A DNA stretch of 24,682 bases. Origin: Patescibacteria group bacterium. GTDB lineage: Bacteria > Patescibacteria > Microgenomatia > Daviesbacterales > UBA10151. The notes under the pieces were generated by a model. The model did no database searches, was not told where the DNA came from, and saw only the letters and a program-made list of their open reading frames with translations. Positions 21,536 to 24,682 of this stretch are shown here, one piece after another. A program made the translations under genes and the position numbers. The first letter of the stretch is position 1; each line of letters begins with the position of its first letter. The DNA is taken from the NCBI GenBank assembly GCA_023487645.1, contig JAMDBX010000063.1, forward strand, positions 1-24,682. Direction: 5' to 3'.

Positions 21536-22468
21536 ATGATTACCGTCACCGGCTCCCTGGCTTTTGATCACATTATGGATTATCCGGGGAAATTTTCCGA
21601 TCACATCATGTCGGATAGAATTCATCAAATCAATCTGTCTTTTTTGGTCACCACTTTAAAAAAACAAAATGGCGGCACTGCCGGCAACATTGCCTATAAC
21701 CTGGCCCTTCTTAAAACTCCGGTGTCTATTGTTGGGATGGCTGGAGTTGATTTTTTGGATTATGCCAAGTTTTTAGAAGAAGCCGGGGTGGATATTTCAA
21801 ATATCCAAACTGCGAAAAATAATTTAACCTCTTCGGCCTTCATTATGACCGATCAAACAGATAATCAAATTACCGCCTTTTATCCCGGCGCCATGGAAGA
21901 TACCCATAAATTATCTTTGGAAAGCATGGCGACTGATTTTGCCGTTATTTCTCCCAACAATCCCCAAGCCATGGTTAAGTTTGCGGCTGATTGCCAAAAG
22001 CAAGCCATCCCTTATATGCTAGACCCGGGTATGCAGCTGCCAGCCCTTTCTCCCGGCGATTTAAAAGACATGCTCAAAGGTGCCAAAATTTTAATCGGCA
22101 ATGATTATGAAATTGCTTTGTTGAAAGAAAAGCTATTCTTATCTGACTCCCAGCTTTTAGACAAGGTCAAAATATTAATCACTACCTTAGGGGAAAAGGG
22201 TTCAGTAATTCAAACTAAAGACCAAACTTTACAAATCGATTCCGGCAAAGTTACCGAGGCTGTTGATCCCACCGGCGCCGGCGATGCTTATCGGGCCGGA
22301 TTTTTGGCTGGTTTTACCAAAGGTTGGAATTTAAAGACTTGCGGGCAAATGGGATCAATTGCCGCTTGTTTCGCAGTCGAAAAATATGGTACAACTAGCC
22401 ATACATTTTCTTTGGAAGAATTTAAAAAAAGATATCAAGAGAACTTTGGAGAAGACTTAAATTTATGA
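21536..22468 (+). CDS. PfkB-family kinase, probable adenosine kinase
   Basis: The 310-residue ribokinase-fold protein begins with [20 protein letters not shown]. It has the first PfkB signature [15 protein letters not shown] (45-59) and the second signature [13 protein letters not shown] (244-256), with D250 as catalytic base. The FSDHI and NGGTAGN context is close to bacterial/archaeal adenosine kinases. Adenosine kinase would turn adenosine plus ATP into AMP. Its stop overlaps the start of the adenosylhomocysteinase gene (ATGA), which releases adenosine, so removal of that product is the likely role. A different nucleoside or sugar substrate cannot be fully ruled out. Confidence 0.88.
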
Positions 22469-23721
22469 AATCAGATGTAAAAGATCTAAAACTGGCGCCG
22501 AAAGGCAAACTGCGGATTGAATGGGCTGGTTCCCAGATGAAAGTGTTGGAACTAATCAAAAAACGCTTTCAAAAAGAACAACCGCTCAAAGGGGTTAAAC
22601 TGGGCGCTTGCCTGCACGTTACCGCTGAAACTGCCAACTTAATGATTGCTTTAAAGACAGGCGGAGCCGAGCTGTCTTTATGTGCCTCCAACCCTTTATC
22701 TACTCAAGATGATGTGGCCGCCTCGCTCATCGAAGATTACAACATCCCCACTTATGCTATTAAAGGCGAGGATAAAGACACCTATTATAAACACCTAAAC
22801 GAAGTCTTAGATTTTAAACCGCAAATTACCATGGATGACGGGGCTGATTTAGTCACCCTTTTACACACCGAAAGGAAAGATCAACTCAAAGATGTCATTG
22901 GTTCCTCTGAGGAAACCACCACCGGCGTCATTAGACTGCATGCCATGTTCAAAGACGGTACCTTACAAATCCCAGTGATTGCCGTTAATGATTCCAACAC
23001 CAAACATATGTTTGATAACCGCTATGGTACCGGCCAATCCACCATTGACGGGATTATTCGGGCCACCAATGTGTTGCTCGCCGGCAAAAAATTTGTGGTT
23101 TGCGGTTATGGCTGGTGCGGCCGGGGGCTGGCTAGTCGAGCCAGAGGCATGGGGGCACAGGTGGTTGTAACTGAGGTTGATCCGCTAAAAGCTTTGGAAG
23201 CTGTTATGGATGGGTTTGAGGTCATGCCTATTGCGCAGGCGGTAAAAGTTGCCGATATTATCTGCACTGCCACCGGTAATAAAGCGGTGTTATCAGTCGC
23301 ACACTTTAAACAAATTAAAGATGGAGCCATTGTTTCTAACACCGGTCACTTTAACGTTGAATTTGATTATGATGGTTTGGTGAAAATTGCCAAAAGCCGA
23401 CGGCATTTACGGGATAATTTGGAAGAAATTATTCTCAAAGACGGCAAAAAGATTTTTGTGTTGGGTGAAGGCCGCCTGATTAATTTAGCCTCCGCTGAAG
23501 GCCACCCGCCTGATGTGATGGATATGAGCTTTGCCAACCAGGCCTTGGCCGCCGAGTTTTTGGTCAAAAATAAAGGTAAATTAAAAGTTGATGTGTATAC
23601 GGTGCCACAAGAACTGGATGATATGATTGCCCAATTAAAGCTGGAATCATTAGGCGTCAAAATCGATACTTTGACTGCTGAACAGAAAAAATATTTATCT
23701 TCCTGGCACGAAGGCACTTAA
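22465..23721 (+). CDS. ahcY: S-adenosylhomocysteinase (adenosylhomocysteine hydrolase)
   Basis: This NAD-dependent cytosolic enzyme splits S-adenosylhomocysteine, the product of SAM-dependent methylation, into adenosine and homocysteine. The 418-residue protein has the substrate motif HVTAET (51-56), DDGADL (124-129), EETTTGV (149-155) and [17 protein letters not shown] (184-190 region). The NAD-binding loop is GYGWCGRG (214-221), and [21 protein letters not shown] follows. It lacks the extra insert of eukaryotic/proteobacterial forms and ends with [15 protein letters not shown] like archaeal and Thermotoga enzymes. It overlaps the kinase gene by four bases. Its last 22 bases are duplicated exactly at 24313-24334. 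Confidence 0.97.
23700..23721 (+). repeat. 22-bp direct repeat, left copy (3' end of the adenosylhomocysteinase gene)
   Basis: These 22 bases begin TTCCTGGCACGAAGG and end with the TAA stop. They recur exactly at 24313-24334 in the same orientation, flanking the GNAT gene. The unit between repeat starts is 613 bp. Confidence 0.9.
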
Positions 23722-23732
23722 GTTGTAATTAA

Positions 23733-24197
23733 TTACAGTATTTTTTCCATATGAATAGAAGGGAGCTTGCCTCCCTCAGAATTAACATGAAATCCCTCTT
23801 TGATCTTTCCGAATCCATGTTTTTCATAAAATTCCATTGCTGTCAAGGAAGAGTCAACCTTTAACTTCCTAACGCCCATTTTATATGCTTTTTGCTCTAA
23901 GTATGCAAGAATTTTTGCTCCTATTCCTTTCCTTAAATAATTTGCACTGACATATATTGCGGTAATTTCATCATCTTTTAAAGAGCCTACCCCCACAATT
24001 TGGTTATTTTCAATAGCAATACAGGTAAAACGATTTTTGTCTTGCATTCTCTCTTTTACTTTTTCTTCTGTATCCGTTTTTTTCCATACCTTTATCTGTT
24101 CTGGAGAATAATCCTTTGCATTTACTTTCCTGATTGTATCCTGCGTTAGCAAACTAATTTCCCTTACTTCACTAATTTTTGCTTTTCTGATTAACAT
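23733..24197 (-). CDS. GNAT-family N-acetyltransferase
   Basis: GNAT enzymes transfer an acyl group from acyl-CoA to an amine. The 154-residue protein has MLIRKAKISEVREISLL (motif C), NNQIVGVGSLKDDEITAIYV (motif D/A strand), RKGIGAKILAYLEQKA (91-106, the acetyl-CoA-binding RxxGxG/A loop) and SLTAMEFYEKHGFGKIKEG (motif B). The acceptor is unknown. The gene carries its own extended -10 promoter and sits on the minus strand between two 22-bp direct repeats that interrupt the convergent ahcY and methyltransferase genes, so it looks like a recent insertion. A 14-bp perfect palindrome (TGTAATTAATTACA, 23724-23737) covers its stop codon. Confidence 0.9.
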   Translation of the reverse strand: MLIRKAKISEVREISLLTQDTIRKVNAKDYSPEQIKVWKKTDTEEKVKERMQDKNRFTCIAIENNQIVGVGSLKDDEITAIYVSANYLRKGIGAKILAYLEQKAYKMGVRKLKVDSSLTAMEFYEKHGFGKIKEGFHVNSEGGKLPSIHMEKIL

Positions 24198-24203
24198 TCT
24201 TTT

Positions 24204-24212
24204 AGTTTATCA
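24204..24212 (-). promoter_or_regulatory. Extended -10 promoter of the GNAT gene
   Basis: The minus strand reads TGATAAACT (TGn plus TAAACT), ending six bases before the ATG at 24197, a leaderless arrangement. It lies within the inserted segment, so the gene came with its own promoter. Confidence 0.5.
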
Positions 24213-24277
24213 TCTCCAACATAAAATGTTTCATTTATCCCATGACCATGATATGTTTGTCCAATTCTAAAAGGAGC

Positions 24278-24661
24278 TTAGCTCAAGAGCAAAAACGTTA
24301 GGTTTAACCGCATTCCTGGCACGAAGGCACTTAAATTTTTAATATATTCCGGATTTGTACCGCAACATCCGCCTATTATCTGAACCCCGCTCTTAATCCA
24401 CTTTTGCGCTTCTTTTAAATAACTATCTGCTGCTTTTACTCCACCTCCCGTCCAACCCTGCACATCATCAACCCCCCCATCACCCTGGGCATAAACTCCA
24501 ATAGGTAAATCAGTTAATTTTCTCAGTTTTTTCACCACTTTAGTAATAATTCTTGGTGGCATGCAATTTAATGATATGAATAACGGTCCGTATGTTGCTA
24601 TGACAGACACAGCTTTTTGCAGATCCTCTCCGCCTAACAATTGCCCCTTTGAATTACAACC
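24278..24661 (-). CDS. Homocysteine S-methyltransferase family protein, C-terminal part (truncated at the contig end)
   Basis: About 127 residues remain. The frame stays open upstream into the poly-C run, so the TTG at 24640 is not the true start. The zinc-ligand motifs SLNCMPP and GGCCGTNPEYI are those of the homocysteine methyltransferase domain (MetH N-terminal/BHMT/MmuM-type), which uses three cysteines to bind zinc and activate homocysteine. The methyl donor cannot be told from this fragment. After [14 protein letters not shown] the last residues (MRLNLTFLLLS) come from beyond the 22-bp duplication and look like an acquired tail. Without the insertion the frame would have ended as ...AFVPGR-stop inside ahcY. 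Confidence 0.88.
   Translation of the reverse strand, partial: GCNSKGQLLGGEDLQKAVSVIATYGPLFISLNCMPPRIITKVVKKLRKLTDLPIGVYAQGDGGVDDVQGWTGGGVKAADSYLKEAQKWIKSGVQIIGGCCGTNPEYIKNLSAFVPGMRLNLTFLLLS
24313..24334 (+). repeat. 22-bp direct repeat, right copy (inside the methyltransferase fragment)
   Basis: This is an exact duplicate of 23700-23721, in the same orientation, read on the minus strand as the LSAFVPG codons of the methyltransferase. Together with the left copy it brackets the 591 unique bases that contain the GNAT gene. Confidence 0.9.
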
Positions 24662-24682
24662 CCCCCCCCCCCCCCCCCCCCC
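24660..24682. other. Terminal run of 23 C, probable sequencing/assembly artefact
   Basis: The window ends in an uninterrupted C homopolymer that would encode polyglycine in the middle of a conserved methyltransferase domain. This is not biologically credible and resembles poly-G read tails from two-colour Illumina chemistry assembled at a contig edge. Confidence 0.85.

Follow-up and report, generated by a model that had tools for sequence, protein, structure and literature searches.

Phages and genomic islands can integrate into the 3' ends of genes, whereby the gene is restored and its native tail is displaced. The gene cassettes of integrons are small inserts with one or few genes. Minimal mobile elements (MMEs) were defined in Neisseria (PMC3082526), with two conserved genes flanking a variable site as a criterion, and in homology-facilitated illegitimate recombination one end is anchored by homology while the other is joined without it (PMC3240628). 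Here we describe a locus of a Patescibacteria genome at which the 3' end of ahcY is present twice, on either side of an acquired gene. This structure is real and more general than the single locus in the window. In the literature searched we found no prior description of ahcY as an integration or island site, nor of an equivalent in Daviesbacteria, which does not prove its absence from print.

The doubled ahcY end in the window

The window, the whole stretch of 24,682 nucleotides that was analysed, corresponds to positions 40991-65672 of contig C21 of the genome G000, a 26-contig draft of 1.04 Mb that is 92% complete. The poly-C at 24661-24682 replaces real sequence, and these last 22 bases differ from the genome record. 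The nearest named ahcY loci were those of Daviesbacteria (L052, 83% identity), in a comparison from which records of the window's own genome were possibly absent. The gene ahcY (22465..23721, plus strand), encoding S-adenosylhomocysteine hydrolase (Pfam PF05221/PF00670), is intact with 418 aa and has retained its stop, as had been annotated. Its upstream neighbour, a pfkB-family kinase gene (21536..22468, plus strand), was used as reference gene. The repeat search agreed with the initial annotation that the last 22 bases of ahcY recur exactly 613 bp downstream. The direct repeat TTCCTGGCACGAAGGCACTTAA was found at 23700-23721 and 24313-24334, with 591 bp between the copies, and when up to 3 mismatches were allowed these two sites were the only ones in the window and in the 1.04-Mb genome. 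No such 22-bp repeat appeared in 100 shuffled windows. The repeat begins 19 bases before the ahcY stop and ceases with the last base of that codon. In a sample of about 324 kb of this genome (329 kb with overlap), six other sites have exact direct repeats of 20 bp or more at distances of 50-3000 bp, and two of these sites resemble duplicated genes. Thus the length alone is not distinctive; what is distinctive is that the repeat ends exactly at the stop codon.

Repeat search and codon alignment identified the proximal copy (23700..23721, plus strand, coding for SWHEGT*) as the ahcY end in service. The distal copy (24313..24334, plus strand), which reads SAFVPG in antisense within the methyltransferase, would be the displaced relic. 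Between them lies an acquired segment of 591 bp (23722..24312) with a G+C content of 33.3%, compared to 40.2% in a sample of the genome. Its sole annotated gene codes for a GNAT acetyltransferase of 154 aa (23733..24197, minus strand, Pfam PF13673), convergent with ahcY. The initial annotation had given this gene its own promoter, but a consensus scan of the GNAT strand from 23600 to 24400 yielded no sigma-70-type site. At 1e-12 the GNAT protein had no match in 11 other genomes of the same genus and a single other match (36% identity) among 373 genomes of the class. The G+C content and the lack of a match within the genus support the proposed recent acquisition of the segment. Plasmid relatives of the GNAT protein comprised 81 records, of which the 8 listed had 30-35% identity, and a phage search with the window junction gave no match.

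Downstream and convergent lies the C-terminal part of a homocysteine S-methyltransferase gene (24278..24682, minus strand, Pfam PF02574), which starts outside the window, is complete in the genome record with 307 aa and still overlaps the distal copy. Its last 11 residues, after VPG, are read mostly from the acquired segment, and the new 11-residue tail that had been proposed was thereby confirmed. When the flanks were joined by script without the insert and one copy, the methyltransferase had 297 aa and, as the initial annotation had reconstructed, ended LSAFVPGR* inside ahcY.

An original convergence with overlap was well supported by the ends of homologues, although the overlap measured 27 nt and not the approximately 28 first given. 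A search at 1e-60 returned 1066 homologues, of which the best 120 were examined; the window's own protein was not among the 120, and records of its genome were possibly omitted. The three nearest (69-74%) have 297 aa, just as predicted for the gene without interruption. Eleven of the best 120, all within the first 27 (P0005, P0007, P0014, P0016, P0018-P0021, P0025, P0027, P0029), end in [FL][VIML]P followed by 1-3 residues, for example LSAFVPGG, LSSLVPRG, LSSFIPGK and LSALVPGS, whereas 0.4 were expected from the density of the motif elsewhere in the same proteins. The same words appear when the ahcY ends of 27 genomes are read in antisense (SAFVPGR in G000, SSFVPGG in G037, SSLVPGG in G017), with SSFIP- or STFIP-like forms in other genomes. 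Very probably, many relatives have the methyltransferase gene in convergent overlap with the ahcY end, the homologues being known as proteins without their DNA context. In the 11 homologues this would be a conserved overlap of two methyl-cycle genes, the tail of one protein being written on the coding end of the other.

A junction of ahcY and the methyltransferase gene without GNAT, which the initial annotation had proposed to look for, was not found in the DNA of the relatives examined. At 1e-10 the methyltransferase was present in 1 of 45 genomes of the family, the window's own, and in none of the other ahcY loci examined.

Second gene ends in related genomes

An ahcY-end pattern was searched in the 45 family genomes, complemented by searches with each genome's own end and by a profile scan over 27 ends of 26 genomes. 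G012 and G022, with partial ahcY matches, were left out, and G010 and G015 were kept, their ahcY bodies being masked or broken and their ends usable. Family genomes with off-pattern ahcY ends are outside this set unless they were caught by a separate ahcY search. G052 matched the pattern and was dropped because the gene was not ahcY.

A second ahcY end on the same strand was found downstream in 4 of the 27 ends, at +613 in G000, +1466 in G008, +74 in G046 and +989 in G049. The aligned repeat stretches were identical in 22/22, 39/41, 25/28 and 29/38 nt, respectively, and in all four cases the homology stops at the stop codon or 1 nt past it. Between the copies of G008 both codon differences are synonymous (2/2). 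In G046 two of three are, and the third exchanges His and Asn, which are both used by relatives. The relic of G049 showed more codon changes, including Trp to Arg, as would be expected for a decaying relic. This case was caught solely by the profile scan, with a score of 30 compared to at most 24 for any other match in either direction, and was missed by the strict pattern. Across 373 genomes of the class, G000, G008 and G046 were the only ones in which the strict pattern found two same-strand copies on a single contig. The control comprised 79 ahcY loci, nearly all from outside the family and mostly belonging to other phyla; downstream of them the best match showed 8 mismatches in 25 positions, no better than the opposite strand (best 8) or the upstream side (best 7). 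After removal of three control loci that matched genomes of the in-family set, the scar was present at 4 of 25 ahcY loci within the family and at 0 of 76 others (Fisher p 0.003).

Several side observations concern the inserts. A palindromic repeat in the insert of G046 was considered as an attC-like site and rejected, as it is dispersed (12 matches in G046) and its flanks showed no shared boundary. This palindrome, CCTGGGGTTTGAAC...AACCCCTGGGGTT (L159, L172-L188), has 5 matches in G039, and some copies in these two genomes stand just after putative tRNA genes. At the end of the G049 insert (L165, roughly 850-970 bp after the ahcY stop) there are several hairpins such as CCACGGGCTTACGCCCGTGG, which we take to resemble the ends of IS200/IS605-type elements. 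G007 and G008 have sequence in common.

The scar was also found at genes other than ahcY. When the last 22 nt of 276 genes of G000 were scanned with up to 3 mismatches, one match was obtained, at the ribonucleotide reductase gene nrd, and the same scan of 301 genes in stretches of relatives returned ahcY matches only, in two genomes. At the peptide level, 284 genes of G000 gave nrd (score 71), ahcY (39) and one tandem paralogue, and 311 genes of relatives (some stretches doubled) gave ahcY in G008, G046 and G049. The null maxima were 24 and 29 for shuffled tails and 29 and 27 for the opposite strand. The scan of 311 genes also returned a phosphatase-family gene of G001 with a relic tail and a convergent Fic gene as insert. 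In G037 a PD-(D/E)XK nuclease gene has a relic tail, again with a Fic gene as insert, and thpR of the same genome is a weak case (score 32). A fresh sample of 400 kb from G006 and G011 (300 genes, null maximum 29) contained two strong cases, obg in G011 (score 97, 23-residue relic) and a VTT-domain (DedA-like) gene in G006 (score 93, 25-residue relic), and two weaker ones (44 and 35). Altogether five genes other than ahcY carried the scar in related genomes. Some of their inserts are as short as 26-63 bp, and relic lengths overall are about 22-80 nt. Two rows of the tail scan, L111 (64), which extends as a tandem paralogue, and L212 (54), a tandem paralogue as well, were not counted.

In nrd of G000 (L213:9913-12531, minus strand) the tail KKCHSCGYSMC* recurs 99 bp further on, and all codon differences (6/6) are synonymous. 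Inverted-repeat stretches are visible near this scar, and G005 has a double nrd end of its own.

Outside the family, 629 genes in L055-L131 (77 ahcY-centred loci, a few of them from other Patescibacteria) gave no clear case. Apart from one paralogue (64), rows reached up to 37 compared to an opposite-strand maximum of 31, and the ahcY locus L071, which scored 34, was likewise read as no clear case, though it may be a scar.

Origin of the two ends

In the two cases that were checked, G049 and nrd of G000, the DNA after the relic is native downstream DNA. In G049 it codes for two proteins that directly follow ahcY in the genus-mate G048 (56% and 58% identity); the relic therefore stands where the native end belongs. 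G010 has a single nrd end, and the sequence following it aligns to the DNA behind the nrd relic of G000 (77% over 215 bp). In the window itself we infer that the distal copy is the native one, since the ends of the methyltransferase homologues point to an ancestral convergent overlap in which this copy would have supplied the antisense end. We thus read the distal copy as the native tail, now displaced, and the proximal one as the end that arrived with incoming DNA.

Comparison of whole genes was informative for G049. Its pfkB is 74.1% identical to that of G048 and 57.3% to that of G000, whereas its ahcY is 68-69% identical to that of G048 and 78-79% to that of G000. This discordance made G048-G049 the second most deviant of 210 genome pairs (-2.9 SD); the most deviant was G046-G017, and G017 was low with many partners. 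The AU test did not reject G048 and G049 as one ahcY clade (p 0.068), and the ahcY tree was poorly resolved. It is suggestive, not proven, that the whole ahcY of G049 is foreign and its upstream neighbour pfkB is not. In G000 the last 15-30 codons of nrd are nearer to G004 than to G001, which is often the nearest along the body of the gene, and this weakly suggests a short foreign tract.

We consider it slightly more probable than an even chance that incoming DNA, consisting of a gene end plus cargo, recombined at the 3' end of the resident gene. The incoming DNA would have carried the cargo, here the GNAT gene, behind an ahcY 3' end or a complete ahcY of its own. Through recombination with the ahcY already present, the newly arrived end would have taken over as the functional terminus of the gene. 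The joint on the far side would lie within the final few dozen bases of the resident ahcY, and the tail severed in this way would have moved downstream, where as a relic it keeps its overlap with the methyltransferase gene, the convergent neighbour that it had before. The gene side would presumably have been joined by homologous recombination, and the other side illegitimately or through very short homology. We favour two gene ends of different origin because they account for three features, namely the boundary at the stop codon, synonymous differences between the copies and native DNA downstream of the relic. The ends of the methyltransferase homologues give slightly more weight to recombination with incoming DNA and slightly less to a recombinase.

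Several results count against this reading. No donor sequence for the incoming ahcY end was found, the two copies of the window are identical, and all relics are short, though illegitimate joints should also fall deeper in genes; loss of longer repeats by recombination could explain the latter. In addition, the AU test left G048 and G049 compatible with a single ahcY clade, and outside the family L071 scored slightly above the null maximum (34 compared to 31). Patescibacteria have been described as naturally competent and exchanging genes (PMC12455944, PMC10633639). DprA was found in the window's genome (92% complete) but ComEC (PF03772) was not, and the uptake of free DNA is thus no more than a candidate route of entry.

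Site-specific integration, by small elements whose att site mimics the 3' end of the target gene and with a tyrosine recombinase that acted in trans or was lost later, is in our view unlikely. It predicts an intact gene and a displaced native tail with mainly synonymous differences, as seen; ahcY behaves as a hot spot by the in-family count of 4/25 compared to 0/76 elsewhere; and the genome encodes two tyrosine recombinases. However, both recombinase genes are on other contigs. No integrase domain was detected in the insert proteins or neighbouring ORFs that were scanned (53 of 76 ORFs; one of 26 families was not displayed and one small ORF of the G008 insert was left out), and no attP with the ahcY end was found in viral contigs with one exact pattern. 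The five other genes with the scar, with inserts down to 26-63 bp, would also need many integrases.

It is doubtful that this lineage of Patescibacteria possesses a dedicated route, by which cargo with a gene-end attachment segment would be swapped onto the resident gene by a recombinase in trans and the old tail left as a scar, with ahcY as the main docking site and nrd and obg as others.

We regard it as quite improbable that replication template switching or end joining copied the nearby ahcY end while the GNAT segment was joined, which would involve no foreign ahcY end. The identity of the window copies and the inverted-repeat stretches near the nrd scar are in line with such copying. A local copy should be identical at birth, yet the copies in other cases differ mainly at synonymous positions, and the displaced tails carry native downstream DNA in both checked cases.

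The initial annotation had considered a staggered cut that duplicated the overlap on insertion. A transposase or staggered cut that placed the GNAT segment into the convergent overlap would leave a 22-bp target-site duplication, with which the exact copies in the window agree, and the convergent overlap itself is supported by the homologue ends. Such a duplication should have a set length, copies that are identical at birth and no regard for gene boundaries. It fits less well since the parallel ahcY repeats vary in length (22, 28, 38 and 41 nt), all terminate with the stop codon and have counterparts at other genes, and since the codon differences between the copies of the other cases are mainly synonymous. 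No inverted repeats flank the segment, and no transposase accompanies its GNAT gene, as the initial annotation had noted. This origin is highly improbable. Misassembly of the metagenomic contig, conceivable in a 26-contig draft, is extremely improbable, as the same scar is present in other genomes and the identical GNAT protein was counted on 4 contigs, the longest of 178,512 bp compared to the 70,239-bp contig of this genome, which argues against a one-off assembly error of that gene. A second record of the methyltransferase with its new tail was not found among the homologues listed.

The variable ahcY site and comparison with known systems

The region behind ahcY is a variable site in the relatives. 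In 12 genomes of the same genus, nine kinds of ORF (70 aa or longer) occupy the first position behind ahcY, some of the short ORFs possibly not being genes. The gene thpR (2'-5' RNA ligase family) was found within 7 kb after ahcY in 14 of 27 ends, some contigs ending early, and is itself that first ORF in G011. Convergent neighbours that stop in or beside the ahcY stop belong to a family of no assigned identity in G005, G010 and G037, and in G017 the neighbour codes for methylenetetrahydrofolate reductase. In G003 a convergent 409-aa ORF overlaps the ahcY end by about 20 nt. Several genes next to ahcY are methyl-cycle genes.

Upstream of convergent genes behind ahcY we also noted SAM-I riboswitch-like elements (L003:7168-7265, minus strand, beyond the window end; L044:15683-15781; L037:16716-16818). 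Their scores were 49.7 bits in G006, above the Rfam cut-off, and 32.5 in G010 and 24.9 in G000, both below it. A small protein family (L042:9471-9863, L044:15819-16193, L036:1374-1712, L160:14464-14859), two members of which had no Pfam match, adjoins ahcY in G005, G010 and G037 and is displaced in G008; in G010 the SAM-I-like element stands just upstream of its gene.

Displaced gene tails are a scar, recognisable from sequence only, that can mark the site where foreign DNA was joined and, given an uninterrupted relative, can also tell which end is native. Should the pattern hold, gene acquisitions could be counted in reduced genomes, most of them uncultured, and gene gain in Patescibacteria would become testable across public assemblies. 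The ahcY hot spot is at the same time a variable locus that carries methyl-cycle genes in several genomes.

Compared to transposons, the duplications seen here (22-41 nt, ending at stop codons, with mainly synonymous differences in the other three ahcY cases) are not of set length, identical and independent of gene boundaries, and the window segment contains neither terminal inverted repeats nor a transposase. Integron cassettes are similar in being small inserts with one or few genes, but no integrase or shared boundary site was seen here, and the boundaries are pieces of the resident gene. With the islands and phages that tyrosine recombinases place at gene 3' ends, the locus shares an intact gene and a native 3' end displaced beyond the insert, the native position of the relic having been checked for G049 and nrd. 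It differs by small and varied inserts, by several target genes and by the lack of a recognised integrase in the window insert and in the insert proteins scanned. Homology-facilitated illegitimate recombination is known from transformation and conjugation, whereas here its product alone would be seen, in genomes, with joints that cluster at gene 3' ends. The likeness to MMEs consists in a site between two conserved genes, ahcY and thpR (the latter in 14 of 27 ends), that holds different whole-gene cassettes, which vary between species of one genus (the comparison was made at the species level), and in the lack of an integrase domain among the ORFs scanned at ahcY sites. Incorporation by homologous recombination, as for MMEs, would agree with the ahcY/pfkB discordance of G049, on which the AU test (p 0.068) is not decisive. 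Different from MMEs, the cargo here has a relic of the resident gene's own 3' tail at its border in 4 of 27 ends, and the joints lie inside the gene end and not just in flanking homology.
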